DNA of 39,019 bases, from IMG/VR virus record IMGVR_UViG_3300046000_009272, positions 1-39,019 of that record; one strand, given 5' to 3'. The notes beneath the pieces are model-generated. The model saw nothing but the letters and a program-made list of their open reading frames with translations. It searched no databases and was not told the DNA's origin. The DNA comes from a virus. The position numbers were made by a program, and so were the translations under genes. Shown here piece by piece: positions 4,534-36,684 of the stretch (position 1 is its first letter; each line of letters opens with the position of its first letter).

Positions 4534-6053
4534 CAGAACCCCCTCGCAACTGAAAACCCAACCTTCCAGCTCCCAATCACGGTGTCTGTAATCGTCCCGG
4601 TTGATTTATGGGGAAGTTTTGGGCCACTGCCTCCGAACGTGAACCCGCATGTATTCCTTGTCGTCCAGAACGCCGCACCAGAATAGACACTCCCATTTGC
4701 GTCGGCTCCTAGGACGTATATCCTGTCCCCAACCGCGTAACCAACATCTGCCGTCTTGCACTCAATCCATGCGATAGCGCGTTGGAACGGCGTCCCAATG
4801 TTGCTATTGAAAGAGTACGCCGTGGCGACAGCGATGGTCGTTTGCTCGTTGGAGTAGCGGCCAACTTTTGTGTAACTCACCACGCTGGTAATCGTCGATG
4901 CGCCTGCGAGGCATTCACCTACCGCGTCTCGCTGCACTGCTGTTGCCGTCGACCCATTGCCGACATACATCTGCCCCACGTCGGACACATAGGTATGCTG
5001 CCCATTGACGACTGATATGGCTGGCACCGAATCTTGGGCAATGTATGGAAGCGTGGAGCTGATGGCTGTCAGTGCCCCGGTGCTGGCATTACGGTCGACA
5101 AACAGGTAATTGACCACGTTGGCGGTCAGTCCAGACCAGTATCCAGTCACATCTGCAGACAGCGTGCCAACAAAGTCAGATGCGCCAGCGGCACCCATAC
5201 CATTTGCGAACGCCAGGCGCAAGGGCGTGGCAGTGGCAACCAGGTTGCAGGCCAGTCCAGGGCCGATGGCTACGAAGGCGGAAGCGCCTGCAAGAATGGT
5301 CTGGCGCAACGGGACCTGCACCGCCAGTGCAGTCGAGGAAAAATTCAGCAACTCCACCACACCACCCGCAAGCACCCGCAGTTCCCCCGAATCGCCCCCC
5401 GCCAACTGAACGTTGGCGCCCCGCTGCGTGATCAGGCTTGCACCATTCACAAACGAAGGCGTAGCACCGGTGGCAACCACAAACCGGAATACGCGTCCAA
5501 CGGCTGCGGTGAAGCCCGTCATGGCGTTGTTGCCGGTGAATTGGATGTCATCCGTATCCGGCGCATTGGCCGTCAGGTCGACCACACCGGCCACGCTGGC
5601 GACATCAACGCGTGCGGCACGTGGGGAGATGCCCAGGGCGGCGTAGCTCAGGCCGATGGTCCAGCTGACGAAGGTGCCGCTGCCCACGGCGTAGGTCACG
5701 TTCACATCCAGCGCGGTACCGGTGTAGCCGGTGACCACGCCTTTCATGTAGTTGGCGCCGTTGCTGACCACGACCGTCTGTCCCACGGTCCAGCTCTTGC
5801 CGCTTTGGGTGACAAAGGACCGGGCTCCCGTGCCAATGGCCAAGCTGGTGGTGCTGGTGCCGCCATAGTTGGGCAAGGCCATATTCATGGCAATGCTGGC
5901 GGTCACGTCCGCATTGGTCTGCATCGCGTCGGCCGTACTGTTGGCTTGCGTTCTAAACGTCTGCAACGAGGCCAGAAATTCAAATGCTTTGGCGTCAAAA
6001 TTCGACACCGAATCGGTTGGGCTAGGTGGGTCGGGTAATGCATTAATGCTCAT
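4533..6053 (-). CDS. Tail fibre protein
   Basis: A 506-residue protein is low in cysteine and rich in Ala, Gly, Ser, Thr and Val, with long beta-strand repeats typical of trimeric fibres. The N-terminus (MSINALPDPPSPTDSVSNFD, then a helical Phe-Leu-Ala-Ser-Leu-Gln segment) is a form seen at the virion-attached end of phage tail fibres. The C-terminal 150 residues contain a W, Y and G rich segment that may be the receptor-binding tip. The gene follows the distal tail gene with a 4-base overlap and precedes an assembly-like gene. It is the only fibre candidate in the window and carries no variable repeat of the DGR. Confidence 0.8.
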   Translation of the reverse strand: MSINALPDPPSPTDSVSNFDAKAFEFLASLQTFRTQANSTADAMQTNADVTASIAMNMALPNYGGTSTTSLAIGTGARSFVTQSGKSWTVGQTVVVSNGANYMKGVVTGYTGTALDVNVTYAVGSGTFVSWTIGLSYAALGISPRAARVDVASVAGVVDLTANAPDTDDIQFTGNNAMTGFTAAVGRVFRFVVATGATPSFVNGASLITQRGANVQLAGGDSGELRVLAGGVVELLNFSSTALAVQVPLRQTILAGASAFVAIGPGLACNLVATATPLRLAFANGMGAAGASDFVGTLSADVTGYWSGLTANVVNYLFVDRNASTGALTAISSTLPYIAQDSVPAISVVNGQHTYVSDVGQMYVGNGSTATAVQRDAVGECLAGASTITSVVSYTKVGRYSNEQTTIAVATAYSFNSNIGTPFQRAIAWIECKTADVGYAVGDRIYVLGADANGSVYSGAAFWTTRNTCGFTFGGSGPKLPHKSTGTITDTVIGSWKVGFSVARGF

Positions 6054-6949
6054 GTGAGTCCTTCCAAAGATAAAGAGCAGTCAGATGTGGTGGGGTAGTT
6101 GACCAACGTGTTGAAGTTCATAAAAACTCCGTAAACAGTGGTGCTGGCGTATTCGTCGCTTCCGATCCACAGGCATGGAATGGCCCGCAGGGATGCCAGG
6201 TAGTCATTGAAGGGGTCCACCTCGTGGCGGTCAATCGTCAGCACAAAGTCGGCTGTTTTGGCATACCCCCGCTGGGTGAGAACAATGTCGCCCCACTCAT
6301 TGGTTTCTTTTCGGCTGTAGTCCTTCATGCCCAGGCTTGCGCCGTAATGCACGCCAAAACCCCAGGTGCTGACATTGCCCACCATCAGGGTGCCCACCGC
6401 CATGTCGGCCAGGCCAGTGAAGTCCACAATGATTTGCGCGTCAAAAAAGCTGGGCAAGTCTTGGTAGTAGCTGGTGAGCGATCCCAAGCGCTGGCCAAAG
6501 AACCAGTTCCACCAGCCGGGGCCTGGTGGCGTGCGGGCGCGGGTGATGGTCTTGTCGTACACCGTGCCGTAGGCATCGCTCACCATGCGAACACGGATGG
6601 TCTGCACGCTGCGCAGGTTGACCGCAGCCACCGCAGTCACCACCGTGCCGGGGCGGATGGTGTAGCTGATGCTGGTGGTCTGCGCGGTCTGCGAGCTGCT
6701 GACCAGGTCGAACAACTTCCAGCGGTTGGTGGCGCTTACCAGCACCCACCAGGTGGCATTGGCGGCCGGGGCGTGCCCGACATTCGTAGCCTGCCGGCTC
6801 TGGTAGATCAGGTGGTTGTCAATCACCCGGTCGCCAACCGCATAGGTGGTGCCTGCGGCGTAGGTGGCGTAGTCGGCCTCGGGCACGTTGGTGGCAATCA
6901 GCATGGCGGGGGTGATCGCCAGGGGCTTGATGATGGTCAGGCTGCTCAT
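6050..6949 (-). CDS. Distal tail protein with carbohydrate-binding-like module
   Basis: The start MSSLTIIKPLAITPAML overlaps the tape measure stop as ATGA, which decides against an earlier TTG. Residues about 37-82 form a chitin/cellulose-binding-like pattern found in phage tail proteins: YAAGTTYAVGDRV, then a tyrosine-rich strand, then W and TNRWKLFD. The rest (299 residues in all) is beta-rich with aromatic clusters (PGWWNWFFG near 155). It is directly after the tape measure, so it likely belongs to the tail tip. It replaces the several tail-tip genes normally found here. The function is inferred from position and module only. Confidence 0.7.
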   Translation of the reverse strand: MSSLTIIKPLAITPAMLIATNVPEADYATYAAGTTYAVGDRVIDNHLIYQSRQATNVGHAPAANATWWVLVSATNRWKLFDLVSSSQTAQTTSISYTIRPGTVVTAVAAVNLRSVQTIRVRMVSDAYGTVYDKTITRARTPPGPGWWNWFFGQRLGSLTSYYQDLPSFFDAQIIVDFTGLADMAVGTLMVGNVSTWGFGVHYGASLGMKDYSRKETNEWGDIVLTQRGYAKTADFVLTIDRHEVDPFNDYLASLRAIPCLWIGSDEYASTTVYGVFMNFNTLVNYPTTSDCSLSLEGLT

Positions 6950-22549: not shown

Positions 22550-22553
22550 TCAA
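22407..22553 (-). CDS. Possible small coupled protein (48 aa)
   Basis: A TTG start overlaps the stop of the VapE-like gene (TTGA), and the frame gives a natural-looking basic protein (MTNRSWRNKRAVLQALPDAR, then RPKGWEVRC). The GWEV strand and mixed charge look coding, and the coupling is typical of this phage. There is no ribosome site of its own. Function is unknown. Confidence 0.4.
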   Translation of the reverse strand: MTNRSWRNKRAVLQALPDARLAVVRPKGWEVRCAPIAVRLRGSHRIAP

Positions 22554-25198
22554 AATGGCACATCGTCACCGTCCTCTTCCGTCAATTCATCCGCTACGCT
22601 GGGTGGCGCAGCAGTCATGTCATCCTCAACCTCAACCGGGGGCCAATTGGCGGGGCGCACATAGCCCCATGCCCTGGCACCGTTGATTTGTTTTTTGACG
22701 CGCTCCCAGCCCTCGTGGTCCAGCCAGCCGCGTATCTGCGCTTCAAGGGCGGGGCTGCTCTTGGCAGCGTCCACACCCAGGGCCAAGGTGAGCTGGGCAA
22801 TGGTCACAAAGTCGGTCAAGGTATTGACGACCGACTGAATGCCCGTGGGCATGGGTGGGCGGGTCAACACGTACAGCAACTCGCTCAGCACCGCTGTCTC
22901 CACCAGGCGGCTTTCCTGCATGGGCACAAACAGCCGGCGCTCTTGCTCAGGTGTTGGCGTGTAAGGCGTATCCAGCAGGTACAAGGCATAAGCCTCGGCC
23001 AGCAGCTGGTCGCGGTACTTGATCAGCCATTCGGTGTTGATCGTGTGCTTTACCGGCACCGGCCAAAAGCGGCGGTTGCCGGTGCGGTCGCGCAGGTAGG
23101 TGTTTTCGTTGGTCGTACCCACCAGCAAGCATTGGCGGGCAAAGCTACCCACCGTGCTGCCATAGGCCACGCGGTACCGGTCGACCTTGGAGCTGATAAA
23201 CGCCTTGATGGCCCCCACCTCAGCCTTGCTGAAGTGCGTCATCTCGGCAATCTCGTACACCCACAGGCCCTGCACCTGTTCTTGCGCTTCTTTGCCGCGA
23301 CCCACCTCAAAAGGGGTATCGCTGTAAAACTGTGAGCCTGCCAGTGTCTCCACCATGGTGGACTTGCGCAGGCCGCCCACGCCTTCCAGCACCGGGCAAT
23401 AGTCAAATTTGCAGCCGGGCTGCATCACCCGGTTAACCATGCCCAGCAACCAGCACCGGCCCACGATCTGCAAGTACTCCAGCATGGCCGGGCTCAGTGA
23501 TTCGGGTGTTTCGCCCAACACATGCACCAGCCATTTATCGATGCGGCTTTTCCCGTCCCACTTCAAGCCCTGCAGCTGCTCGCGCACTGGGTGGAAGCGG
23601 CGGGTGTGCGCCACGGTCTGGATGGCCTCGGTCAAGGCTGCACGGGCAATGCTGGGCAGGCCATAGGTGTCGGTCAGGTACTTACCCAGCAGCAAGTCCA
23701 CAGCGTCGGTCACGTCGCCCACCTTGCTGTGTGGCCAGGGCCACAGCACCCGGCTTTGCACGTTGTTGCTCAGCTCGTTGTAGGCCAGCACATCGGCCAG
23801 ATTGGGGTCACGCTCCAGCAGCAGGATCACCATCTTGCGCGAGGTGAGCCAGCGCTTGTTGGCCTTGTCGTAGTAGCACGCCAGCCATCCGGGAATGCGC
23901 CGGCCACTGATCAGCGTGAAGCCATCGTCGTCAATATCACCGTCTCCAGTGCCAACGGAAGCGTCGATTTTTTTTGCGACTGCTTTGCCATCTTTCACCG
24001 CGGGCTCTGAGGCATCGGCCCCCGCCAGCAAGGGCTGCGCCTGACCAAAGAACGCCAGCACCTGGGCACCGTCCCAACCGTCGGTATTGATGGCGTCGGC
24101 ACAGTCCCAGCCATCGGGCACGGACAATGGCGCGGGAATGGGCAACATATGCACCTTGCAGGCATGCGCATCCTGCAGCAGCGCACCAATGCCCAGCATG
24201 GCGGCCATGCCTGGTTGTTTGTGAAGAGGCAGCACGGGCTTGGTGGCCTGAATGACAGCGCGAGCCATGTCATCAGGTGCAGCGTCCCGCTCCGCTTTAG
24301 TCAAAGGCTCACGCTTGCCATCACAGTCAGCCCAGAGCAGCACCGGGCAGCCGTTGAGCCAAGACCAGTCCGCCTTCTTCCAAGCCTTGCAGCCACCCAC
24401 CCAGCTGGCGACCAGGTACACCCCGGGGGCATGGGAATCCAGCAAGGTTTGCAGAATGCCGGCCTTCTTTTCCCCTTCCACCAAGATGACTGTGGGCAAC
24501 GTCCCCGCGCCCGCAACCAAGGGCGAAACGCCACCGGGAAAGTACAGGGGCCGGGGTTCGTCCCACGTTTTCCAGTGCCAGCGGCTGGCACCGTCGCGGG
24601 CGCTGGTGCACCAGGTGTAAGGCAAGGTTTCCTTGCCGCCGTCACTGGTCTTGAAGCGCACCACGTAACCGTACAGCTTGCCGTCGATCTGGTAGGTGGC
24701 CGTGTGCTCTATGTCCTGCAGCTGGCGGTATTGGTGGCGGAAGGTAGCGGCCGGGGCCAGCTCTGGCACCGGGGCTACGGTCTGCCATCCTTCGTCTGAT
24801 TTTGGCGCGGGCGGTGGCGGCGCTGGGCGCACCGGCTTGGGTGCGGGTGGCTCACTGGATGAGCCTGCACGGGCGGGCTGCACACCGGCCACATCTTCCA
24901 GACCTTCTTCACGGGCCAGCTGCACCGCAGCCTTTCCCATGGTCAGGCTGTGGATGGCGGCATACAGGCCCACCAGATCATTGCCCGCCTCATTGGCAGC
25001 AAAGTCTGCCCACTTGCCGTTGACCAGGTTGACCGAGCAGCTTGAGCCCGTGCCACCTGATAGCGACCCGCACACGTATTCATGGCCCCGCCTGGTACCA
25101 CCCGGCAACCACATGGGCACCAACGTATCAGCCTGAGCCAGCAGCGCGTCTGCCAGCGCTGCAAAGTTGATGGGAGGCAACGGTTCACGCTCAGCCAT
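22550..25198 (-). CDS. VapE-type primase-helicase for phage replication
   Basis: The 882-residue protein combines an N-terminal primase-like part with a C-terminal superfamily 3-like helicase. The N-terminal part has a zinc-free HEYVCGS..GGTGSS start, then a toprim-like VILVEGEKKAGIL near 235 and VLLWADCDGK near 280. The ATPase has EGVGGLRKST (about 602-611) as Walker A, GLWVYEIAEM as Walker B, and sensor and arginine elements in LVGTTNENTYLRDRTGNRRF. This is the VirE/VapE family, used by many phages and satellites as the only replication protein. It is read from the leftward early unit after the CII-like gene. Confidence 0.9.
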   Translation of the reverse strand: MAEREPLPPINFAALADALLAQADTLVPMWLPGGTRRGHEYVCGSLSGGTGSSCSVNLVNGKWADFAANEAGNDLVGLYAAIHSLTMGKAAVQLAREEGLEDVAGVQPARAGSSSEPPAPKPVRPAPPPPAPKSDEGWQTVAPVPELAPAATFRHQYRQLQDIEHTATYQIDGKLYGYVVRFKTSDGGKETLPYTWCTSARDGASRWHWKTWDEPRPLYFPGGVSPLVAGAGTLPTVILVEGEKKAGILQTLLDSHAPGVYLVASWVGGCKAWKKADWSWLNGCPVLLWADCDGKREPLTKAERDAAPDDMARAVIQATKPVLPLHKQPGMAAMLGIGALLQDAHACKVHMLPIPAPLSVPDGWDCADAINTDGWDGAQVLAFFGQAQPLLAGADASEPAVKDGKAVAKKIDASVGTGDGDIDDDGFTLISGRRIPGWLACYYDKANKRWLTSRKMVILLLERDPNLADVLAYNELSNNVQSRVLWPWPHSKVGDVTDAVDLLLGKYLTDTYGLPSIARAALTEAIQTVAHTRRFHPVREQLQGLKWDGKSRIDKWLVHVLGETPESLSPAMLEYLQIVGRCWLLGMVNRVMQPGCKFDYCPVLEGVGGLRKSTMVETLAGSQFYSDTPFEVGRGKEAQEQVQGLWVYEIAEMTHFSKAEVGAIKAFISSKVDRYRVAYGSTVGSFARQCLLVGTTNENTYLRDRTGNRRFWPVPVKHTINTEWLIKYRDQLLAEAYALYLLDTPYTPTPEQERRLFVPMQESRLVETAVLSELLYVLTRPPMPTGIQSVVNTLTDFVTIAQLTLALGVDAAKSSPALEAQIRGWLDHEGWERVKKQINGARAWGYVRPANWPPVEVEDDMTAAPPSVADELTEEDGDDVPF

Positions 25199-26703: not shown

Positions 26704-27090
26704 TCAAGCCTCCCCCGCCACATTGAGCTGACTCAGATTGATGCCGCGGCGATCACCGTCGCCCCGTTGTCGTTGCAACCGTCGCTCAGCCAGGCGGCGC
26801 ACCCGGCCAGCGCGGAGGGCGTTCACGGGGGCGGCTTCGACTGCTATGGATTCAGTAGCTGCCTGCGCAGGACTGGCGGGGGCTTTGGCCAGTTCTGGCA
26901 TGTAAATATCGTTGAACGTTATGGAATGCCCGAGCGACTGCGCAAAGGTGATCAATCGCTTTGCGGCTTCAGGCGGAACTGTCTGGCCCCGCTCGTAGTG
27001 CCCGATGTTTCCTTGGGTACATCCCATTTCGACAGCAAGTGCTTCCTGCGTTACGCCGAGGCGTTTCCGGATGGCTTTGATAGTGTTCAT
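26704..27090 (-). CDS. Cro-like HTH repressor
   Basis: The 128-residue protein has an N-terminal Xre-type HTH: MNTIKAIRKRLGVTQEALAV, then MGCTQGNIGHYERGQTVPPE. A linker follows, and the C-terminal basic tail (RRLAERRLQRQRG) is unusual. It diverges from the CI-like gene across a 85-base operator region and leads the leftward early unit, the position of Cro. The predicted -10 (TACTAT) ends only six bases before the ATG, so its message is probably leaderless. Confidence 0.85.
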   Translation of the reverse strand: MNTIKAIRKRLGVTQEALAVEMGCTQGNIGHYERGQTVPPEAAKRLITFAQSLGHSITFNDIYMPELAKAPASPAQAATESIAVEAAPVNALRAGRVRRLAERRLQRQRGDGDRRGINLSQLNVAGEA

Positions 27091-27096
27091 ACGTGA

Positions 27097-27125
27097 ATAG
27101 TAGTTTAACTGTTTTATCTTGTAAA
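27097..27125 (-). promoter_or_regulatory. Leftward early promoter for cro
   Basis: On the minus strand TTTACA and TACTAT are spaced by 17 bases. The -10 is identical to that of the promoter at 28777-28805. The start point would fall at or within a base or two of the cro ATG. The -35 abuts the operator palindrome at 27125-27139. Confidence 0.75.
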
Positions 27126-27139
27126 GCAGTATTACTGGT
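27125..27139. promoter_or_regulatory. Operator-like palindrome between cI and cro
   Basis: AGCAGT-ATT-ACTGGT has the core CAGT-N3-ACTG. The same core with the same spacing lies at 28764-28778. Additional half sites (ACTGTTTT near 27109 and GAACAGTAA near 27150) flank it. It is the likely binding site of the CI-like or Cro-like protein. Confidence 0.65.
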
Positions 27140-27175
27140 TTTCTATTTTGAACAGTAACGCTATTGTTTGATCCA

Positions 27176-27667
27176 ATGAAAAAAATCGGGCGTCAGGCCA
27201 TTGATCCGCTAATAGTTTCCGAAGAGTCCAAGCTCCTCGCAGCTATTTGGTACAACACGCCAGCCAAGCATCGCGGCAGTCAAGCTGAGTTCGGTGAAAG
27301 GTTTGAAGTTGGAAATCAAAGCGCGGTGGGGCAATTCCTCCGAGGGGAGTCCCCCCTCAGCATGAAAGCGGCAAGGGGATTTGCCAAAGGCTTGGGTTGT
27401 CAGATCAACGCTTTCAGCAAGCGTCTTGCGGCTGAAGTGGATGATGCAAGTTCGGTAAACGGCCCCACAAGCGCTATTTCTGGTGGAGAGCAGTGGCCTT
27501 TCTTAACCGTGACACCGGAACAATACTACGGCGTCCTAGACAAGGGCCAGCGTGACATTGTCGAGGCTATGGTCCGAACTCTCGTAGGAGCACGGGAGCC
27601 TCCAATAAAACATCCAGCACCCGCGAACAATACCGCCACCAAGACCAGCGTTGCAAAGACAGCGTGA
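27176..27667 (+). CDS. CI-like repressor
   Basis: The 163-residue protein starts MKKIGRQAIDPLIVSEESKL and has an HTH region LLAAIWYNTPAKHRGSQAEF, then GERFEVGNQSAVGQFLRGES, a common form in short phage repressors. The C-terminal part (TPEQYYGVLDKGQRDIVEAM) lacks the S24 peptidase Ser/Lys residues, so it is not a LexA-like self-cleaving repressor. Induction must work otherwise, for example through an antirepressor. No Shine-Dalgarno precedes the ATG; a TTG four codons upstream is possible. Confidence 0.8.
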   Translation: MKKIGRQAIDPLIVSEESKLLAAIWYNTPAKHRGSQAEFGERFEVGNQSAVGQFLRGESPLSMKAARGFAKGLGCQINAFSKRLAAEVDDASSVNGPTSAISGGEQWPFLTVTPEQYYGVLDKGQRDIVEAMVRTLVGAREPPIKHPAPANNTATKTSVAKTA

Positions 27668-27768: not shown

Positions 27769-28395
27769 TTGAAATCTAGTCTAGAAATGGCCGGCAGCGT
27801 CAGTGCCGCCAAACACCACACCAACCGGGCGATCGAACACCTGATGGGCATCGTGACCGGGATGGTCGCCGATGGAGTACTCAACGATCTTGAGATCAAG
27901 ATGCTGAGCACCTGGCTGGCTAGTCACCCCGAGGCGACAGCAGACTTTCCCGGCTCAGTGATTGCTCGCGCAGTGGCAGATGCCATGGAAGATGGCGTCA
28001 TTGCTGAGGGCGAAAGAGCACATTTACTAAAAATGCTGACGGGCCTTGCATCGACAGACTTCAGCCTGACCGGGTCGGTTAGCCCGGAGGTTGCCAGTCT
28101 ACCCATTGAGGACTGTGTATCCATCGACTTCAATAACTCTATGGTCTGCTTTACTGGAGAGTTCTTGTACGGAACACGCGCTGCCTGCGAGCGACTGGTG
28201 CTGAAAGTAGGCGCCATGTGTGCGGACAACGTGAGCAAGAAGGTGGACATACTGGTGATTGGCACCCGTGTAGCGCCTGACTGGGCGCACACCAGCTTTG
28301 GCCGAAAGATTCAACGTGCAGTAGAGCTTCAAGAGGAAGGCCATGCTATTGAAATCATCTCCGAAAAACGGATGATGGAAGCCGTATCCGCGTGA
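27769..28395 (+). CDS. BRCT-domain protein with TerB-like N-terminus
   Basis: The 208-residue protein starts at TTG, seven bases after a strong GGGAGG; the next ATG six codons later has no such site. Residues 15-105 are helical (a tellurite-resistance TerB-like or EF-hand-like bundle: GIVTGMVADGVLNDLEIKML). Residues 125-205 are a BRCT domain of the DNA-ligase type (NSMVCFTGEFLYGTRAACER, then VSKKVDILVIG). BRCT domains bind phosphoproteins or DNA ends. A gene of this type near a repressor is found in various prophages; the role is unknown. Confidence 0.82.
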   Translation: MKSSLEMAGSVSAAKHHTNRAIEHLMGIVTGMVADGVLNDLEIKMLSTWLASHPEATADFPGSVIARAVADAMEDGVIAEGERAHLLKMLTGLASTDFSLTGSVSPEVASLPIEDCVSIDFNNSMVCFTGEFLYGTRAACERLVLKVGAMCADNVSKKVDILVIGTRVAPDWAHTSFGRKIQRAVELQEEGHAIEIISEKRMMEAVSA

Positions 28396-28411: not shown

Positions 28412-28702
28412 ATGACGCGGGCGTGGTCACGGTATTTTTCTATTCTCATAGTGCTCATCTGCACAATGGCCACTGGCGCAAACGCCGAATATGCTCGGAG
28501 TAAAAAAGCTCTCCGTGAGTTCGTCAACCAGCAGGCTTGCCCCTCCACTGGGTTGCACCGCCTGCCCTGCCCTGGATGGCAAATAGATCACATTGACCCA
28601 CTGAAATGCCTTGGGCTTGACGATCCAATAAACCTGCAATGGCTCACCGTGGACGATCACAAAGCAAAGACAAAACGAGAAGCCAAGTGGTGCAGGCAAT
28701 AA
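28412..28702 (+). CDS. Secreted HNH nuclease
   Basis: The 96-residue protein has a signal peptide (MTRAWSRYFSILIVLICTMA, then TGANA) and an HNH core in the mature part: ACPSTGLHRLPCPGWQIDHI, then PLKCLGLDDPINLQWLTVDD. Four cysteines and the D-H / N / D-H positions fit the compact HNH family with PCPGY.IDHI. The product should act in the periplasm. AAGGGA precedes the ATG. It sits in the lysogeny region, downstream of the BRCT gene and before an operator-bearing promoter, so it may be expressed in the lysogen. Confidence 0.8.
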   Translation: MTRAWSRYFSILIVLICTMATGANAEYARSKKALREFVNQQACPSTGLHRLPCPGWQIDHIDPLKCLGLDDPINLQWLTVDDHKAKTKREAKWCRQ

Positions 28703-28761: not shown

Positions 28762-28778
28762 AAAACAGTTTTACTGTT
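28762..28778. promoter_or_regulatory. Operator-like palindrome at the right promoter
   Basis: AACAGT-TTT-ACTGTT is a perfect inverted repeat, overlapping the -35 of the promoter at 28777. It has the same CAGT-N3-ACTG core as the cI-cro site at 27125-27139, so the same repressor likely binds both. Confidence 0.72.
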
Positions 28779-28805
28779 GACATAAATAAGCAGCAAAACT
28801 ACTAT
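28777..28805 (+). promoter_or_regulatory. Rightward sigma70 promoter of the DGR operon
   Basis: TTGACA and TACTAT are spaced exactly 17 bases: a near-consensus strong promoter. The palindrome 28762-28778 covers the upstream edge of the -35, so binding there would block it. The sequence AAACTACTATTCAC is shared with the cro promoter. All genes from 28847 to the integrase lie downstream with few gaps. Confidence 0.85.
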
Positions 28806-28846
28806 TCACCCCATCCCGCCACCTCACGGCGGATTTGGAGTGAATC

Positions 28847-29281
28847 TTGCAAACCTCAACACAGCGGCCCGCCCGCACCCGCAAGCCAGCCACCACAGCA
28901 CCGGCAGCAACACCGTTTAGCCAGGCAGCAGCCAAGCTGATCGCGCAAGTCCAGGCCGAAGCACGTGAGCAGTTGCTCAAAGAGCTGAGCGCCAAAGACG
29001 GCATCACCGTCCTGCACGGCTTTGATGCCGAAACCAAGCATGTGATGGCAAATGGAAACAGCATCACCATTTGCGACTACAGCGGCAATAAATTGCACAT
29101 ACAGCGCAGCCATCAAGAGCCAGAGGGCTGGCGCGGCCACTCATACATGGCAGGCTACTGGCACCCGGCCCGTTGGTACGGCGACCAGATCATGGTGGAC
29201 GCTAGCGGCGTCGGGTGGTCGCGAGACATCGGCATCTTTGTCTGCGACGACTTCGGCAACCTGGTAGCGGTGCAGCGATGA
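28847..29281 (+). CDS. First gene of the right operon, hypothetical
   Basis: The start is a TTG six bases after TTTGGAG. The 144-residue protein has an Ala/Pro/Arg-rich, probably flexible N-terminus (1-30), a helix (SQAAAKLIAQVQAEAREQLL) and a beta-rich C-terminal part (VMANGNSITICDYSGNKLHI, then WHPARWYGDQIMV). I do not recognise a family. It is the first gene after the operator-controlled promoter. Confidence 0.68.
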   Translation: MQTSTQRPARTRKPATTAPAATPFSQAAAKLIAQVQAEAREQLLKELSAKDGITVLHGFDAETKHVMANGNSITICDYSGNKLHIQRSHQEPEGWRGHSYMAGYWHPARWYGDQIMVDASGVGWSRDIGIFVCDDFGNLVAVQR

Positions 29282-29424
29282 CCTACCGCCAAGCCTTCGA
29301 CCGCCTGGGCAACCCCATTGCCCGCCCTGCCCGCGCACCCCTTGTCCACCGCATCATCCAGGTGGCGGGGCTCATTGCGACTCTTGTCGGCCTGCTGGCC
29401 CTCTACGGGGCACGGTCATCATGA
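29278..29424 (+). CDS. Small membrane protein (48 aa)
   Basis: MTYRQAFDRLGNPIARPARA is followed by one membrane segment (IIQVAGLIATLVGLLALYG, about 26-44). ATG overlaps the preceding stop as ATGA. It is too short for a family call. It is paired with a second small membrane protein. Confidence 0.6.
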   Translation: MTYRQAFDRLGNPIARPARAPLVHRIIQVAGLIATLVGLLALYGARSS

Positions 29425-29567
29425 TCACCCCCGAGGACAAAGACCAAGACAGCCTGCACAGCCTGGTGCAAGACGTTTTGTACTGGAGTGCCGTAGCGGC
29501 TGCTGCCGTCCTGACCTTGGTCGCAGCCGTTGGCACGGTCGGCTACATCTACCACCGGTGGTTTTGA
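29421..29567 (+). CDS. Second small membrane protein (48 aa)
   Basis: MITPEDKDQDSLHSLVQDVL leads into one membrane segment (about 19-44, YWSAVAAAAVLTLVAAVGTV) and ends YIYHRWF. It overlaps the previous gene (ATGA) and the next one (TGATG). Function unknown; two consecutive one-pass proteins may form a pair. Confidence 0.6.
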   Translation: MITPEDKDQDSLHSLVQDVLYWSAVAAAAVLTLVAAVGTVGYIYHRWF

Positions 29568-29911
29568 TGCAGACGTCTGCACACAAACCCCTGCCAGCCA
29601 ACTGGCCCAGCGCCGAATACACCGGCGTGCTGCTGCACGCTGCCGAGGCCCGCTCTGGCATGGCCGACACCCAAGGCCACATCGTGCCTGTGCTGTGCCT
29701 GGACATCGAGCTGGACAACGCACACCACACCCACCTGCACGTGGAGCAGCCGTTTCCGGCAGGCCACCACACGCAGGCCGAAGCCGCCGCCCATCGCCTC
29801 AAAAAAGGCATGCGCGTCACCGTGCAGGCGCCGCTGGTCGGCATGCGCCTGGTGGCCCGCAATGCCGCCCACATCCACGTCATCAACGAACTGCAGGAGC
29901 AAGCCGCGTAA
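29567..29911 (+). CDS. OB-fold-like early protein (114 aa)
   Basis: MQTSAHKPLPANWPSAEYTG is followed by alternating strands (VLLHAAEARSGMAD, IVPVLCLDIELDN, HTHLHVEQPF, GMRVTVQAPL, AHIHVI) compatible with a single-stranded-DNA-binding OB fold. In related phages proteins of this look occur near replication and recombination genes. The call is a fold guess only. Confidence 0.6.
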   Translation: MQTSAHKPLPANWPSAEYTGVLLHAAEARSGMADTQGHIVPVLCLDIELDNAHHTHLHVEQPFPAGHHTQAEAAAHRLKKGMRVTVQAPLVGMRLVARNAAHIHVINELQEQAA

Positions 29912-30102
29912 TGCCAAGCGTCACCTTCACCCTTACCGACACGCCCACGGGCGGTGTCGCAGTGCACACCGACTTCAAGCCCGCCATCGGTGCGCCTTGC
30001 AGCGTGGCCCAAGCCGCAGCGCTGGACATCATCCGCCGCACAGCCCGCGAATACGGGCTGGATTCCACCAAGCCTATCAGCCCCACTCAGGCCGCGCAAT
30101 GA
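29911..30102 (+). CDS. Small hypothetical protein (63 aa)
   Basis: MPSVTFTLTDTPTGGVAVHT is followed by DFKPAIGAPCSVAQAAALDI and a C-terminal helix. The opening (TFTLTDTPTGGVAV) is common in small phage proteins of Burkholderiales. Start and stop overlap neighbours (TAATG, ATGA). Function unknown. Confidence 0.62.
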   Translation: MPSVTFTLTDTPTGGVAVHTDFKPAIGAPCSVAQAAALDIIRRTAREYGLDSTKPISPTQAAQ

Positions 30103-30623
30103 GCCCCACCATCCTCACCCATAGCGGCATCAGTTTCAACCTGCTGAATCCCGACCCCGACCTGATCGAGATCGAAGACATCGCGCACGCCCTGTCGCAC
30201 CTGTGCCGTTTCACCGGCCACACCAACCGCTTTTACAGCGTGGCGGAGCATAGTGTCCGGGCAGCCCTGCACGTCGCGCCAGAGTTCGCGCTGGAGGCGT
30301 TGCTGCACGACGCCACGGAGGCCTACCTGGGCGACGTATCCAGCCCGCTCAAAGCCTTGCTGCGTGAATACCGCCTGATCGAGCTCCAACTAGACCTCGT
30401 CATCCGCGAGCGCTTTGGCCTACCCCTGAAACAGTCGCCCCAAGTAAAGCAGGCAGACCTGGCCATGCTGGCAACCGAACGCACGCACCTGATGCCCGTC
30501 ACTAACGAGCACTGGCCCTTGCTGGACGGCATTGCACCCGCCGACTCTATCGAAGTGCCCCTCACTTCCATACAGGCCTACAACCTGTTTATCTACCGCT
30601 TCAACTCGCTTCATAAATCATGA
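30099..30623 (+). CDS. HD-domain phosphohydrolase, YfbR-like
   Basis: The 174-residue protein has HALSHLCRFTGHT (about 30-42), YSVAEHS with His51, LLHDATE with His70-Asp71 and Asp120, the metal ligands of HD phosphohydrolases. YfbR-type enzymes remove phosphate from deoxynucleoside monophosphates. In a phage this may tune nucleotide pools during replication. It is coupled to both neighbours (ATGA). A link to the DGR, which needs dNTPs for cDNA, is possible but not shown. Confidence 0.85.
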   Translation: MSPTILTHSGISFNLLNPDPDLIEIEDIAHALSHLCRFTGHTNRFYSVAEHSVRAALHVAPEFALEALLHDATEAYLGDVSSPLKALLREYRLIELQLDLVIRERFGLPLKQSPQVKQADLAMLATERTHLMPVTNEHWPLLDGIAPADSIEVPLTSIQAYNLFIYRFNSLHKS

Positions 30624-30844
30624 AGATGAAACGCTACACCCCAAGCGGTACATCCACCGCGGGCTCCATGTGCATAGGCCCCGCCACCACCAAAGGCGCC
30701 TACAGCACGACCAAGCACAGCCCATCCACCGCCACGCGCCCAGGCGCCAACGATGCGCTGGCACTGCCCACACGCATAGGCGACCAGCTGCACCACCGCA
30801 ATGGCCGCATCACTTCTTTCTCAACCCCAAAGGCACGTAAATGA
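30620..30844 (+). CDS. Small basic hypothetical upstream of the DGR
   Basis: The 74-residue, Thr/Ser/Arg/Lys-rich protein (MKMKRYTPSGTSTAGSMCIG...) has low hydrophobic content and may be largely disordered. It is coupled by ATGA at both ends, which supports translation. An ATG two codons later is an alternative start. Function unknown. Confidence 0.55.
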   Translation: MKMKRYTPSGTSTAGSMCIGPATTKGAYSTTKHSPSTATRPGANDALALPTRIGDQLHHRNGRITSFSTPKARK

Positions 30845-31233
30845 CCAACGCACCCACCACCACACTCACCCTATCCAGCCTGCCCAACCTGGGCGCCCCA
30901 CTGGATGGAGGCACCTTTGCAGGGATCACCACTAAAAGCGACGGCACCCACTGCGCCGTGGTTCTGCTGCCCGAGCAAGGTGAAAAGCTCACCTGGAAGA
31001 AGGCCATGAACTGGGCCGCCAAACAAGGTGGAGAACTGCCAAGCCGCCCTGTTGCCGCCCTGCTTTTTGCTAATGCCAAAAGCCAGCTCAAACCCAAATG
31101 GCACTGGACCAGCGAGGAGGAGGACGCTTCCTACGCTTGGCATTGCTACTTCAGCTTCGGCATCCAGAGCACCATCCTCAAGAGCGACGAAGGTAGTGCT
31201 GTTGCCGTCCGCCTGATTCACCTCACCAATTAA
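30841..31233 (+). CDS. DGR target protein 1, C-type-lectin-like
   Basis: The 130-residue protein ends in a variable repeat. Its core pattern (LTWKKAMNWAAKQGGELPSR, then LLFANAKSQLKPKWHWTSEE and C-terminal EGSAVAVR) is the CLec / DUF1566-like ligand-binding fold used by DGR targets. The variable residues (His, Tyr, Ser, Phe, Ile, Ser, Thr, Ile at template Asn sites) lie at about 101-116. There is no signal peptide, membrane segment or tail-fibre domain. It is homologous to the next gene, so the two arose by duplication. The start overlaps the previous stop as ATGA. Function and ligand are unknown. Confidence 0.88.
   Translation: MTNAPTTTLTLSSLPNLGAPLDGGTFAGITTKSDGTHCAVVLLPEQGEKLTWKKAMNWAAKQGGELPSRPVAALLFANAKSQLKPKWHWTSEEEDASYAWHCYFSFGIQSTILKSDEGSAVAVRLIHLTN
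31124..31212 (+). repeat. VR1: variable repeat of target 1
   Basis: This 89-base block matches the template at 32291-32379 except at 11 positions. Ten of the changes are at template adenines. The other is T to G at 31186 (template 32353). The last 26 bases (GAAGGTAGTGCTG...) are identical to the template and form the IMH-like anchor. Confidence 0.93.
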
Positions 31234-31264
31234 TCCTTCAGTCCTTTTTTTTCAGGAGCCAACC
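31213..31264 (+). other. Shared 3' flank of the variable repeats
   Basis: Just after each variable repeat's gene end lies the motif TTAATYCTTCAGTCCTTT (31229-31247 and again at 31720-31738). It continues here into an eight-T run and then into a strong AGGAG ribosome site for target 2. The copy after VR2 can fold a small CAGT-loop-ACTG hairpin. It may help target recognition or be a relic of gene duplication. Confidence 0.55.
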
Positions 31265-31723
31265 ATGCCACCCATCACCCTTGAAGCCATTGAAGCCAAA
31301 CAGACCGAGCTGAGTCAGCTTATTACCAAATTCAAAGCACAGCCGCAAACCACAATAAACACATTCCCCGCGGTCGACATCGAACTATTCCCCGGAGAAC
31401 ACTATGCCGGCCCCGTGCTGGACGAATCCGGCAAGGTCACCCACCACCTGGTGCTGATGGCCCAGCAGCCAGACGGCAAGCTGAATTGGCAGGCGGCTAT
31501 GGACTGGGCCGAAGAAGTGGGCGGAACCCTCCCCACTCGGCAAGAGCAAGCCCTGCTGTTTGCCAACTGCAAACCCCACCTGCAACCCGCATGGCACTGG
31601 TCCAGCGAGACGCATGCGGATGACGCTTCCTTCGCTTGGCATTGCGACTTCGACCTCGGCAGCCAGGACGACGACCTCAAGAGCTACGAAGGTAGTGCTG
31701 TTGCCGTCCGCAGATTCCTTTAA
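31265..31723 (+). CDS. DGR target protein 2, C-type-lectin-like
   Basis: The 152-residue paralogue of target 1 has an extra N-terminal helix (MPPITLEAIEAKQTELSQLI, then TKFKAQ) before the shared lectin-like core (LNWQAAMDWAEEVGGTLPTR, then LLFANCKPHLQPAWHWSSET). Variable residues (His, Asp, Asp, Leu, Ser, Asp, Asp, Asp) make an acidic surface, unlike target 1. An AGGAG stands seven bases before the ATG. No secretion or tail-fibre sequence is visible. Confidence 0.88.
   Translation: MPPITLEAIEAKQTELSQLITKFKAQPQTTINTFPAVDIELFPGEHYAGPVLDESGKVTHHLVLMAQQPDGKLNWQAAMDWAEEVGGTLPTRQEQALLFANCKPHLQPAWHWSSETHADDASFAWHCDFDLGSQDDDLKSYEGSAVAVRRFL
31623..31715 (+). repeat. VR2: variable repeat of target 2
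   Basis: This block matches the template at 32291-32383 except at 11 positions, and all 11 are template adenines. Identity at the 3' end continues four bases further than in VR1 (through AGAT). The changes A to C at template base 18, A to T at 34 and A to T at 55 are shared with VR1. Confidence 0.95.
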
Positions 31724-31754
31724 TTCTTCAGTCCTTTAACTGAGCCCCGCCACC

Positions 31755-32117
31755 ATGGCACTGCACACCGAACTCCCGATCTACCGCACCGGCGTGCGCC
31801 TGCTTGACCTTGCAGTCAGCGCCCAGGTGCAAATGCCGCGCACCGTCAAACGTGCGCTGGGCGACAAGATCACCCAGCACTGCGTTGAAATGCTGGACCT
31901 GATGGCCCTGGCCAACGCCACACAGCGCGATGTCCGCGCAGGACATATTGACCAGCTGCTCACCCGCCAGCGGGCCATCACGGTCTTGCTGCGGGTCAGC
32001 CACGATGCACGGTACATCTCGCCCAAGCTGTGGGCGGATTCCATCGAGCTACTGGGCAGTGTCGGCAAGCAGGCTGGTGGTTGGCTCAAAACAGCGAACA
32101 GGGCGCCTGCTGTATGA
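31755..32117 (+). CDS. avd: Avd: DGR accessory variability protein
   Basis: The 120-residue, all-helical protein (LPIYRTGVRLLDLAVSAQVQ, then MPRTVKRALGDKITQHCVEM and LLTRQRAITVLLRVSHDARY) matches the four-helix-bundle Avd family, which forms a pentamer that binds the reverse transcriptase and template RNA and is needed for mutagenic cDNA synthesis. It lies between target genes and the template repeat, the usual place. Its stop overlaps an ATG in the RT frame (ATGA). Confidence 0.88.
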   Translation: MALHTELPIYRTGVRLLDLAVSAQVQMPRTVKRALGDKITQHCVEMLDLMALANATQRDVRAGHIDQLLTRQRAITVLLRVSHDARYISPKLWADSIELLGSVGKQAGGWLKTANRAPAV

Positions 32118-33472
32118 CGGTCAAGGCCCTCATACCCGTGCGCATAGTGAATCTGGTCACGCCGCTGCCCCATAAGGGCACCGACATGCACACCACGGAG
32201 ACCGCTGCCACCGCGCAGGCCTGGTCCGGTGCAGCTGCCCGTCTGATCGGCTCTAGCCTTCGGACAGGCAGCCTACATAGCGCGATTGGTACGCTTCCTA
32301 CGCTTGGAATTGCAACTTCAACAACGGCAACCAGAACAACAACCACAAGAGCTACGAAGGTAGTGCTGTTGCCGTCCGCAGATCCACACCTGTTCCAGCG
32401 ACTGGTGCAAGCCTACCTCGATTGCCGACGCACCAAGCGCAACAGCGCCAGTGCACTGGCCTTCGAGGCCCAGGCTGAGCACAACCTCTACCAACTCTAC
32501 GAGGAACTGGCCTCGGGCACCTACCAGCCAGGGCACTCTGTCTGCTTTGTCATCACCCACCCCAAGCCACGCGAGGTGTGGGCGGCACGCTTTCGGGACC
32601 GCATCGTGCACCACTTGCTTTACAACCACATTGCGCCGCGTTTTCATGCCCGCTTTGTGGCCGACAGCTGTGCGTGCATCCCCGGCCGGGGCACGCTCTA
32701 CGCAGCCAAGCGGCTGGAGCACCAGGTGCGCAGTCATACGCAGAACTGGAGCTGCCCCGCCCACTACCTCAAGTGCGATCTGGCCAACTTCTTTGTCTCC
32801 ATCGACAAAACAGTGCTGCTGGCACAGCTGCAGCGCCAGGTGACAGAGCCGTGGTGGATGGCGCTGGCCAGTGTCATCCTGATGCACGACCCACGCCAGT
32901 CGGTCGAGGTGCGCGGCACCCGCGCCGAGCTGGCCTTGGTGCCACCACACAAGAGCCTGTTCAACGCACCCGATGGCTACGGCCTGCCCATCGGCAACCT
33001 GAGCAGCCAGTTCTTCGCCAACGTGCTGCTGGATGACCTGGACCAGTTTGCCAAGCACCGCCTGCAGGCACCTCACTACGTGCGCTACGTGGATGACTTC
33101 ATACTGCTGCACGACAGCACCCAATGGCTCACCCAGGCACGCCTGCATATCGAAGCCAAGTTGGGAGAACTGCACCTGCAGCTGAACCCACGCAAGACCG
33201 TGATGCAGCCCATCGCACGCGGCATCGATTTCGTTGGCCACCTGGTCAAACCATGGCGGCGCATCACCCGCCGCAAGACCGTGCATATGGCGCTGGATCG
33301 CCTGCAGGACATGCCCGCAGCCGACCTGCACCAGTCTGCCAATAGCTATTTCGGCCTGCTCCGCCAAGCCACCCACAGCCACCACGACCGCACCCGCGTT
33401 GCCAAGCTGATGCTTCAACGTGGGCATGTAGTTCAGGGCGACATGACCAAGATTTACCGCAAAAAAGGATAA
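32114..33472 (+). CDS. DGR reverse transcriptase
   Basis: The polymerase copies the template RNA into cDNA, misreading adenines. The conserved part starts with FQRLVQAYLDCRRTKRNSAS near 32390. It includes FVITHPKPREVWAARFRDRI (motif 0/1), LKCDLANFFVSID (motif A), GLPIGNLSSQFFANV (DGR-type motif with GxPIGNxxSQ) and YVDD at 33086-33097. The start is uncertain: the frame is open from an ATG at 32114 coupled to avd, but this would translate through the template repeat. A GTG at 32363 or TTG at 32369, at the end of the template, would give the usual RT length. Confidence 0.93.
   Translation: MTVKALIPVRIVNLVTPLPHKGTDMHTTETAATAQAWSGAAARLIGSSLRTGSLHSAIGTLPTLGIATSTTATRTTTTRATKVVLLPSADPHLFQRLVQAYLDCRRTKRNSASALAFEAQAEHNLYQLYEELASGTYQPGHSVCFVITHPKPREVWAARFRDRIVHHLLYNHIAPRFHARFVADSCACIPGRGTLYAAKRLEHQVRSHTQNWSCPAHYLKCDLANFFVSIDKTVLLAQLQRQVTEPWWMALASVILMHDPRQSVEVRGTRAELALVPPHKSLFNAPDGYGLPIGNLSSQFFANVLLDDLDQFAKHRLQAPHYVRYVDDFILLHDSTQWLTQARLHIEAKLGELHLQLNPRKTVMQPIARGIDFVGHLVKPWRRITRRKTVHMALDRLQDMPAADLHQSANSYFGLLRQATHSHHDRTRVAKLMLQRGHVVQGDMTKIYRKKG
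32291..32383 (+). repeat. TR: DGR template repeat
   Basis: This 93-base block sits between avd and the conserved RT part. In the target frame it encodes eight Asn codons (AAT/AAC) that become other residues in both targets. AAY codons can yield 15 residues by adenine change without making a stop. The 3' end (from GAAGGTAGTG) is constant in all three copies, as expected for the template end of the mutagenesis homing site. It should be transcribed as part of a template RNA that includes the avd end. Confidence 0.95.
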
Positions 33473-33477
33473 ACACC

Positions 33478-35532
33478 ATGACCGACGAATTCGCATCCAT
33501 CGAGCTGGCCCTGATCGCGTCCAGCCTAACCAACCCACGCAAGAGCTTTGACCAGGTGAAGCTGCAGGAGCTGGCCGACAGCATCCGCTCCAGTGGTGTG
33601 CACCAGCCCATCCTGGTGCGCCCTCTGCCCGGTAGCCGCTTGCAAGACACGTTTGACATCCATGCCGCAGGTGGCCACCTTAAGGTGCGCCCCACCTATG
33701 AGCTGGTGTGTGGCGAACGCCGATTCCGCGCTTCTGCGCTGGCCGAAGTGGCTACCATCCCCGCACTGATCCGCGTGCTGACCGACGATGAAGTGCTGGA
33801 GATCCAGATCGTTGAAAACCTGCAACGCGACGACTTGAGCGAGCTGGAGGAAGCCGAAGGCTACGACACACTGATGCAGCACAACGGCCTGAACGCGGAT
33901 GCCGTAGGCCTCAAGATCGGCAAAAGCCGTAGCCACGTGTATGCCCGCCTCAAACTGCTCGACCTGTCCATGGAGTGCAAGCAGGCCATGCGCGAGGGCA
34001 AGATCGACGCCAGCCGCGCCCTGTTGATTGCCCGCATCCCCGACAGCAAGCTGCAGATCAAGGCGCTGGAGTACGCCACCGAACCCGGCTACCAAGACGA
34101 CATGCCCAGCGTGCGCGAGTTGCAGCGGTGGTTGCGCCAAAACGTGATGCTGGTGCTGGATCGGGCGACCTTCAAGATTACCGACGCCCGCCTGGTAGAG
34201 GCCGCTGGCAGTTGCACCGCGTGCCCCAAGCGCACCGGCGCGAACCCCGATCTGTTTGTCGAGGTGGACAGCGATGACATTTGCACCGACCCCGCATGCT
34301 TTCACGACAAGGAAGCCGCCCACCGCGCCGAGCTGGTGAAGCGGGCCGAGTCCAAAGGCATGCGCATGGTGGAGGGCCAAGAGGCCAAGGAAATGTGCAA
34401 CCCATGGGAATCGGTGCCCCCCGGCTACAGCACGCTGGGCCAGGTGCGCAAAGACCTGGCTGCGGAAGGCCAAGAGCCTGACACCTTGCGCCACCTGTTG
34501 GGCAAAGACGCCCCCAACGCCATCCTATTTGAGCACCCGCGCACCAAGGAACTGATGGAGCTGGTGCCCACCGAAGAGGCCGAGGCAGTGCTGCTTGCCA
34601 AGGGCTTACTGAAGGTAGAAAACAGCGCCGCCATACGCAATGCGGAAGGCCTGCAGGACGAACTCGCAAACCTGCAAAAGAAGGTGGAGCAAGCCACCAT
34701 CAAGGCCATTCACAAGGCCACATTTGACGCGACCGTGGACGCGATCCGCTGCACATCGGACAAGGATGCGCCGGCGCTCTTTGGCGCAGCCTTCTTGCGT
34801 GCCTGGCTGGCTTCGCAGATTGACTGCGGCGTTGATGAGGAATATCTGGCCAGGGCTTTGGGCTACACCTTTCACGACGGCGAAGACGAAGTGGACGGCC
34901 TGACCATGCACATCCAGGCGTGCAGCAGCGCCAACCTGTACCGCGCCACGGCCATCCTCATGGCACAGGAGGATATGCACGTACCGTATGGCGACAACGT
35001 GCCCACGATCCTCAATGCGCTGGTCAAGCAACTGGCCATCGACACCAAAGCCGTGTCCAAGGATGCAAAGGACACCGTAAAAGCCGAATACGCCGAAAAA
35101 ATCAAGGTGGCCAAGGCCGAAATCGAAGCGCAGAAACTTGTTTTACCTACGACCCCGCTGGCGCAGCCTGACCTTGAGGCCGGGAAGGGTCCAAAGGCAG
35201 AAGCCAAGACAACCCGAGGCCCGCTGCGCAAGCCAAAGCTGAGCGCCGAGGATGCCAAATCAGGCATCGCTGCCGCGATGCAGGGCATGGAGCAGCCCGC
35301 GACTGCGCGGGCTGAGGCCCAGCAAGGCGAACTGGGGATCGGCTTTTGCGTTGGCCAGAAGGTGCGCGTAACCGATGACGTGGACAAACTGGCGCTGAAC
35401 AAGATCAAGTACAAGGGCAAGGAAGGCGCCATCACCGAGAAGCAAGGCGACTCGGCGTGGTGGGTCAGCTTCAAGGGCCGCACGGGCGGTCTGGCTTGCT
35501 TTGATGTGTCTGAGCTGGCGGTGGCAGCATGA
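33478..35532 (+). CDS. Long ParB-like nuclease/partition-type protein
   Basis: The 684-residue protein has a ParB N-terminal domain (TNPRKSFDQVKLQELADSIR at 18-37, CGERRFRAS at 78-86), an HTH (ADAVGLKIGKSRSHVYARLK at 140-159) and a likely zinc site with Cys246, Cys249, Cys269 and Cys274. The last 60 residues form a KOW-like beta domain (KVRVTDDVDKLALNKIKYKG, then GAITEKQGD). Long ParB-like proteins without ParA are common in phages, where they may regulate replication or act as nucleases. It starts six bases after the RT stop. Confidence 0.85.
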   Translation: MTDEFASIELALIASSLTNPRKSFDQVKLQELADSIRSSGVHQPILVRPLPGSRLQDTFDIHAAGGHLKVRPTYELVCGERRFRASALAEVATIPALIRVLTDDEVLEIQIVENLQRDDLSELEEAEGYDTLMQHNGLNADAVGLKIGKSRSHVYARLKLLDLSMECKQAMREGKIDASRALLIARIPDSKLQIKALEYATEPGYQDDMPSVRELQRWLRQNVMLVLDRATFKITDARLVEAAGSCTACPKRTGANPDLFVEVDSDDICTDPACFHDKEAAHRAELVKRAESKGMRMVEGQEAKEMCNPWESVPPGYSTLGQVRKDLAAEGQEPDTLRHLLGKDAPNAILFEHPRTKELMELVPTEEAEAVLLAKGLLKVENSAAIRNAEGLQDELANLQKKVEQATIKAIHKATFDATVDAIRCTSDKDAPALFGAAFLRAWLASQIDCGVDEEYLARALGYTFHDGEDEVDGLTMHIQACSSANLYRATAILMAQEDMHVPYGDNVPTILNALVKQLAIDTKAVSKDAKDTVKAEYAEKIKVAKAEIEAQKLVLPTTPLAQPDLEAGKGPKAEAKTTRGPLRKPKLSAEDAKSGIAAAMQGMEQPATARAEAQQGELGIGFCVGQKVRVTDDVDKLALNKIKYKGKEGAITEKQGDSAWWVSFKGRTGGLACFDVSELAVAA

Positions 35533-36035
35533 GAACCACCGCCCACGGCCGCAGACTGCCCCGCCGCCCACGCCCTATTGCAGTGAACACCCTCGCCCTT
35601 GCCATGAACGGCGCATCCAAGATCGACAAGCGGGACGCTGACGAACTGCTGGCCACCGTTCAAGCATCGTTCAAGGCTATGCGCGAAGGTGTGGGTGAGC
35701 TGCGCGACTGGTCAATCCTTGCCGGCACACTGGACGTGTCCATGGCCATCGAGCGCCAGGGCGTAGTGCGCGGCCTGCATGAACACCTGGCCACCGCCGA
35801 GACTGCACTGCAGTCGGTCTACCGCCGCGCCCGCAGTGCAGACGGATGGACGTCCACCCCCCTGTACTTTCACGAGCTGGACGCCCTGCGCGAGTTTGTG
35901 GACCTGCACGCCTTCCAGATGCGCAACCTGAGCCGCTCGGAGTTTGAGCAAGTCATCCAGACCGCCACCAGCCAGATCCGCAGCAATGGCGGCAAGGCAT
36001 CTGTGGTGCGGGCGGTTTCGGGAGTGGCAGCATGA
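35529..36035 (+). CDS. Phage hypothetical protein (168 aa)
   Basis: The protein has a basic N-terminus (MRTTAHGRRLPRRPRPIAVN) and a helical body (ELLATVQASFKAMREGVGEL, then AETALQSVYRRARS). ATGA overlaps on both sides show coupling to the ParB-like gene and the next gene. A common hypothetical in Burkholderiales prophages; no function is known to me. The family pattern (STPLYFHELDALREFVDLHA) is recognisable. Confidence 0.7.
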   Translation: MRTTAHGRRLPRRPRPIAVNTLALAMNGASKIDKRDADELLATVQASFKAMREGVGELRDWSILAGTLDVSMAIERQGVVRGLHEHLATAETALQSVYRRARSADGWTSTPLYFHELDALREFVDLHAFQMRNLSRSEFEQVIQTATSQIRSNGGKASVVRAVSGVAA

Positions 36036-36439
36036 GCCTCATTGACGAAATAAGAATCGCACAGCGTGATGCTGGCGAGGCCGCTGTGATGCGCAATCTG
36101 GAACGCCTCGGACTGGGTTCAATTGGCGACTACGCAACGGCCGAAGAAACAGCTTCTGTGATTCGCCTGGGCACGCCTGATGAGCTGTGGCTCAATGCCC
36201 AGTTGGACCGCATTGCCCCCAACCGATTTGATGCTGACGTTGGTGAAAGTGACGCCCTAGTCAAGCTGGTGTTTGAGTTGAAGGCGAAGCTAGTGAACGG
36301 ACCCGAGGTGCTTAACCTGGTCCAGACTTTTCGCCAATGCCAGCATCCCGACGCCGGCGAGGTCTATGACGCGATCGTGAGCGAGTTGCACCTGGACGCG
36401 AAGACCACTCAAGGCCCACGTGATGGAGTCAATTCATGA
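36032..36439 (+). CDS. Phage hypothetical protein (135 aa)
   Basis: The acidic, helical protein (MSLIDEIRIAQRDAGEAAVM...) has no motif I recognise. Coupled by ATGA to both neighbours. Base use is slightly less G+C-rich than in the ParB-like gene. Function unknown. Confidence 0.65.
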   Translation: MSLIDEIRIAQRDAGEAAVMRNLERLGLGSIGDYATAEETASVIRLGTPDELWLNAQLDRIAPNRFDADVGESDALVKLVFELKAKLVNGPEVLNLVQTFRQCQHPDAGEVYDAIVSELHLDAKTTQGPRDGVNS

Positions 36440-36684
36440 TCGCCGTAAAAATCAAAGTCTCAGAGCTGGGCCGCTCCGATCTGGCCCTGCTGGTGACCGA
36501 TGGCCAGCGCGAGGCATGGGTGCCATTCAGTCAGATCGAAGAGATCGAGGAAGAGCCCACCGGCCCGCTGCGCCTGGTAGCCGTCACCGCGATCGTGATA
36601 CCCGACTGGCTGGCCAAAGAAAAGGGCCTAGAGCCCTTGCAGCAAGATGACGACACGCTGGATCTGTTTGGAGACGCATCGTGA
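36436..36684 (+). CDS. Small phage protein (82 aa)
   Basis: The product (MIAVKIKVSELGRSDLALLV, then TDGQREAWVPFSQIEEIEEE) is a small beta-rich protein with an acidic C-terminus. The pattern of WVP.SQI.E is shared with other small phage proteins of unknown role. Coupled by ATGA on both sides. Confidence 0.66.
   Translation: MIAVKIKVSELGRSDLALLVTDGQREAWVPFSQIEEIEEEPTGPLRLVAVTAIVIPDWLAKEKGLEPLQQDDDTLDLFGDAS

Follow-up and report, generated by a model that had tools for sequence, protein, structure and literature searches.

Immunity operators at a PL-type early promoter preceding a phage DGR suggest control of the DGR by the phage repressor

The timing of DGR mutagenesis in phages is largely unknown, and a conserved immunity operator at a promoter that precedes a DGR gives a testable answer. 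The question is raised by the viral record IMGVR_UViG_3300046000_009272 (39,019 nucleotides, analysed over its whole length and hereafter referred to as the window), for which an initial annotation described a DGR operon promoter carrying the same operator as the lysogeny switch and suggested that the phage repressor silences both this rightward unit and the leftward early unit. The answer offered here is that the DGR would be off in the lysogen and on during replication and the early phase of lytic transcription. The analysis adds to that description the full operator sets, the probable identity of the promoter as a PL, the conservation of the arrangement with turnover of the operator sequence, and the interpretation of the DGR as putative cargo of a pre-existing early operon.

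The switch region and the genes beyond it comprise the following features.

26704 to 27090, minus strand: Cro-like HTH protein (cro; Pfam HTH_31 7e-9, HTH_3 1e-8)
27093 to 27125, minus strand: cro (PR-like) promoter, TTTACA-17-TACTAT (27125-27097), then AAACTACTATTCAC
27099 to 27113: switch operator 1, AGTAGTTTAACTGTT, overlapping the cro -10
27125 to 27139: switch operator 2, AGCAGTATTACTGGT, abutting the cro -35
27151 to 27165: switch operator 3, AACAGTAACGCTATT, close to the cI transcript start
27176 to 27667, plus strand: short CI-like repressor (ATG at 27176; alternative start TTG at 27164)
27769 to 28395, plus strand: gene placed like rex of lambda (phrog_3989 family, with a weak BRCT match)
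28412 to 28702, plus strand: HNH endonuclease-like gene, likewise placed like rex

Three operators are present in the gap between cI and cro (27091-27175), with starts at 27099, 27125 and 27151 and a step of exactly 26 bp. The middle one had been recognised correctly in the initial annotation, while those at 27099-27113 and 27151-27165 had been missed. Such an array, set between cI and cro genes that diverge, is the arrangement of lambda-type immunity. The cro gene is the first of the leftward early unit, which leads to a primase (22550-25198). Only about 7 nt separate the cro -10 from the start codon (27090-27102), a distance equally short in three relatives (L003, L004 and L106; relatives are denoted by L and a number throughout), and the cro mRNA is therefore probably leaderless.

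The CI-like repressor of the window is 41% identical over the alignment to the CI of L042 and 39% identical to that of L004. In its AlphaFold2 model, the DNA-binding domain has a pLDDT of about 87 and the remainder is short and of low confidence; the best PDB match of the model is the lambda repressor-operator complex 1lmb (E 1.2e-3, probability 1.00), and the DNA-binding domain, with a lambda-like HTH, is accordingly modelled as folding like lambda repressor. No Pfam match to the S24 autocleavage domain was obtained for the CI of the window or of L042 (1931-2335), whereas the domain is present in the CI proteins of L004 and L106. The S24 domain is not universal among phage repressors. Since the CI of the window has none, SOS induction is not assured, which argues against lambda-style induction through RecA and the SOS response, but not against control through OL and OR. 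A lambda-type topology is thus claimed here and a lambda-type induction is not; an antirepressor is one possible way of lifting the repression.

Downstream of the two genes in the rex position lies the rightward promoter.

28764 to 28778: OL-type operator A, AACAGTTTTACTGTT, a perfect palindrome overlapping the -35 by 2 bp
28777 to 28805, plus strand: predicted PL-type early promoter, TTGACA (28777-28782), spacer of 17, TACTAT (28800-28805), with the same layout in most relatives
28789 to 28803: OL-type operator B, AGCAGCAAAACTACT, degenerate, over the -10 and 25 bp from operator A

Operator A overlaps TTGACA-17-TACTAT as had been described, apart from its start, which had been placed 2 bp early at 28762; the degenerate operator B had escaped notice. 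This promoter is built like that of cro, in which one operator abuts the -35, another overlaps the -10 and AAACTACTATTCAC follows, and the presence of the last sequence after the -10 of both promoters, noted earlier for the cro promoter, was confirmed. A scoring matrix derived solely from the three switch sites was scanned over the 39-kb window. The operator at 28764 has the top score of the whole window, which none of 2000 block shuffles reaches, and the operator at 28789 ranks fifth, behind 28764 and the switch sites, and second outside the switch. A further candidate in the far-left intergenic region (615-629, AACAGTGTAAATGCT), third best outside the switch, was rejected as its score lies inside the shuffle range. 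The resemblance had originally been described as a shared CAGT-N3-ACTG core; this 11-bp core does not reach significance when taken by itself (with one mismatch allowed, 17 matches occur where 16.5 are expected), whereas the 15-bp form, from which significance is argued here, gives five matches at four sites, one site matching on both strands, where 0.35 would be expected; none of 100 shuffles gave five matches. The operators at 28764 and 28789 repeat the switch sequence at the rightward early promoter, and cI lies between the two sets, as in lambda-type immunity. Because the order OR - cI - accessory genes - OL/PL matches that of lambda, 28777-28805 is regarded as a predicted PL-type early promoter, the probable equivalent of lambda PL/OL and not dedicated to the DGR.

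The transcription unit behind this promoter includes the following features.

28806 to 28850, plus strand: conserved 5' leader hairpin, TTCACCCC..(CCGCC..GGCGG)..GGAGTGAA, pairing with the Shine-Dalgarno sequence of the gene that follows
28847 to 29281, plus strand: leading gene of the PL-type operon, starting with TTG (homologues in L028, L097, L127 and L141)
30841 to 31233, plus strand: DGR target protein 1 (VR1 at 31124-31216)
31265 to 31723, plus strand: DGR target protein 2 (VR2 at 31623-31715)
31755 to 32117, plus strand: Avd (Pfam bAvd 1.6e-10, PHROG 6e-22)
32101 to 32292, plus strand: RT-15 RNA (Rfam RF03018; 167 bits, E 3e-41), directly 5' of the template repeat
32291 to 32383, plus strand: template repeat (TR)
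32390 to 33472, plus strand: DGR reverse transcriptase (RT; PHROG 7e-108; relatives up to 92% identical)
33478 to 35532, plus strand: ParB-like protein, the next operon gene after the DGR, also present in a DGR-less sister

All genes from 28847 to 36684 have the same direction and mostly overlap, and no other plus-strand promoter-like site was found before 37653; the DGR is therefore most simply a part of the PL-type operon. With RT, Avd, TR, VR and differences directed to adenines (11 of 11 differences from TR fall at TR adenines in VR2 and 12 of 15 in VR1), the DGR appears intact from its sequence. Both targets (30841-31723) are short proteins in the early operon, and none of the window's structural genes was found to contain a VR copy. 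In two relatives (L092, carried by the cultivated strain Limnohabitans lacus HM2-2, at 6679-6728, and L106 at 5345-5917), a gene resembling a DGR target stands first behind the PL-type promoter.

The DGR does lie behind the promoter, as had been stated, but the operon also exists without it. The operator pair and the leader are retained in L142, L145 and L162, records of 35-41 kb with no DGR RT that may be fragments, and a promoter dedicated to the DGR is for this reason rejected; in L142 the ParB-like gene is present without a DGR. The same layout of three plus two operators is seen in L004, with no RT in its 12.7-kb record, which is possibly a fragment. The DGR is thus best described, as far as these sequences indicate, as optional cargo of a pre-existing early operon and not as the reason for the operator.

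The leader hairpin forms the first 40 nt or so of the PL-type transcript and occurs in L005, L011, L029, L046, L094 and others, with and without a DGR. Pairing of its outer stem is kept via two-sided changes in four of seven pairs, with 88.7% of cells paired. The covariation score of this stem is the best of all slides and is reached in none of 500 shuffles, evidence that is good and not final as related sequences can exceed such shuffles. The hairpin may act in translation control or mRNA stability.

The conservation of the operators was examined in DGR loci collected by RT-based searches (80 viral and 42 genomic). A group of these loci has the common order primase <- switch -> ... VR1, VR2, Avd, RT, mostly followed by ParB. 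A blind scan of 92 loci for a palindrome recurring in two clusters, with 368 block shuffles as the null, placed one cluster in the switch gap and the other about 0.5-2.1 kb rightward, with a sequence that differs between phages. Scores of 7-13 were obtained for 16 distinct relatives whose operator layouts are real, against a shuffle maximum of 7 and a 99th percentile of 6; high scores of L040 and L053 were discarded, their source being repetitive GC-rich sequence. For 24 phages, a matrix was built for each from its switch sites only and used to rank the sites outside the switch. In 23 of the 24, the pair at the rightward promoter takes the first two ranks, and in the remaining phage it takes the first and the third; these ranks are partly circular because the switch sites of most loci came from a scan rewarding recurrence. 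At least eight different operator sequences occur among the 24 phages (such as AACACG-N3-CGTGTT, ATACCT-N2-AGGTAT, TCTACA-N2-TGTAGA, AAGCGG-N1-CCGCTT, CTACCG-N4-CGGTAG and AGTAGC-N4-GCTACT), and the paired operators at the PL promoter are mostly 24-25 bp apart (18-26 bp overall).

The circularity was addressed by the shuffles and by loci fetched through the leader sequence downstream of the promoter alone. In L131, L141, L142, L145 and L162, obtained in this way, TTGAC is surrounded by an operator pair, and the switch sites are recovered with a matrix derived from that pair. The data are short or modest in three of these loci (L131, L145 and L162), and the PL score is reached by 10 of 200 shuffles in L145 and by 5 of 200 in L162. 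Phages with an orthologous Cro (L042, L003, L004 and L106), in which the recognition-helix segment is kept as TQGN[IV] or SQGNV, have the AGY-N3-RCT core and the operator-TTGAC-operator-TAxTAT layout of the window, which links the operator class to this family of Cro regulators. As the operator has changed jointly at the switch and at the PL promoter, one repressor is likely to serve both, and the earlier proposal of a single repressor for the two early units is thereby supported and probably right.

Loci with RT identity near 61-65% often show no operator signal, and L086-L088, considered as DGR-less controls, had no clear operator clusters and were left out. A search through the CI protein by a pattern method found no relatives, and no nucleotide relatives were found among named phages. 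In L003, OL-type and OR-type operator pairs lie about 250 bp apart (620-960), a distance into which a cI gene would not fit; this phage has possibly lost or moved its repressor.

The operators with their geometry, conservation and co-variation, the promoter layout and the gene order were observed directly, and CI and Cro binding, repression and timing are what we infer. The site very probably constitutes the OL/PL half of an immunity region of the lambda type, with the DGR operon off in the lysogen and on at infection or upon loss of CI. The five operators, three in OR and two in OL (28764 and 28789), would be bound by the CI-like and Cro-like repressors, and occupancy of OL would mask both the -35 and the -10 of a strong early promoter. 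This promoter would read a single operon of small early genes, the two DGR targets, Avd, RT-15 RNA/TR, RT, ParB and more, all of which, including the DGR, would be off in the lysogen. At infection or loss of CI, the PL-type operon would fire together with the divergent replication operon, so that mutagenic retrohoming would coincide with replication of the phage DNA, and Cro would later turn down both promoters. The link between DGR expression and induction suggested in the initial annotation may be read in the same way; the mutator would probably stay silent during dormancy and be turned on at waking.

Several other explanations deserve consideration. A chance resemblance, by which AT-rich promoter sequence mimics the switch palindrome, would agree with the 11-bp core being no commoner than expected, but it is refuted by the shuffle result for 28764, by the pair geometry and co-variation, which are the same in 24 phages, and by the blind scan and the leader-fetched loci, and it keeps a negligible probability. 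It is also quite improbable that Cro, and not CI, acts on the 28764 operator for a late shut-off of early transcription, with the promoter on in the lysogen. The operator core is common to phages with orthologous Cro, and the preference of a protein for a site is not readable from sequence; against this, the same motif forms the three-site array between both regulator genes, the CI DNA-binding domain folds like lambda repressor in its model, and a strong early promoter on in the lysogen would mean constitutive early genes.

Less improbable than these, though still rather unlikely, is expression of the DGR in the lysogen at a low constant level through read-through of the cI transcript, with OL needed only for the lytic boost. 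The cI gene and the two genes at 27769-28395 and 28412-28702 all point toward the operon, and read-through is possible as no strong plus-strand terminator is predicted between cI and 28847. DGR activity without induction has been described in hankyphage lysogens, where it is confounded by spontaneous virion production (PMC12135933). However, called genes of the opposite direction lie just before the PL promoter in relatives (L008 at 5754-6248, L011 at 5510-6040 and L012 at 5794-6491, all heuristic calls), which makes read-through unlikely as a conserved route. Repression of the operon through OL in the lysogen remains the preferred reading.

Among the closest known systems, the lambda immunity region (OR/PR/PRM - cI - rexAB - OL/PL) likewise has operators between divergent cro and cI, accessory genes downstream of cI and a second operator set at an early promoter that points away from the replication genes. 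The two sets of three operators in lambda are about 2.3 kb apart (PMC5880393), compared with about 1.6 kb between the sets here. Unlike lambda, the window has two OL operators and not three, 25-26-bp steps, a CI without S24, a PL-type operon bearing a DGR and a ParB-like gene, and a leader hairpin that pairs the first Shine-Dalgarno sequence. The Cro of the window is 38% identical to that of P22-like Salmonella phages (c2/cro), a similarity that does not extend beyond its N-terminal half; a further difference is the DGR in the early operon here. TR, VR, Avd, RT and adenine-directed changes are shared with the DGR of Bordetella phage BPP-1. In BPP-1 a tail protein is diversified and the DGR lies beside tail genes, whereas here an immunity operator precedes the early operon that contains the DGR and both targets. 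Since the targets belong to the early operon and the structural genes have no VR, the usual view of phage DGRs as diversifying tail proteins may fail here.

In the Bacteroides hankyphage, a CI-like repressor, RepC, holds most phage genes down, and its silencing raises their expression and DGR activity; the phage differs in being transposable and in having a tail-fibre target, and a repressor operator at the DGR promoter is not described in the sections available (PMC12135933). A literature search among open-licence papers found no report of an immunity operator at a DGR promoter. In E. coli, retrohoming depends on the direction of replication and is higher near the origin (PMC12875486), and both studies fit the proposed control, off in the lysogen and on with replication.

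Repressor operators of uncultivated phages can also be predicted in this way, from the co-variation of operators between the switch and a second early promoter. More broadly, and with a chance somewhat short of even, the DGR may in many temperate phages, often of Burkholderiales, be cargo of a PL-type operon directly controlled by the immunity repressor, in which case hypermutation would be confined to induction or infection, during replication, and would be targeted, in place of tail fibres, to early non-structural proteins.
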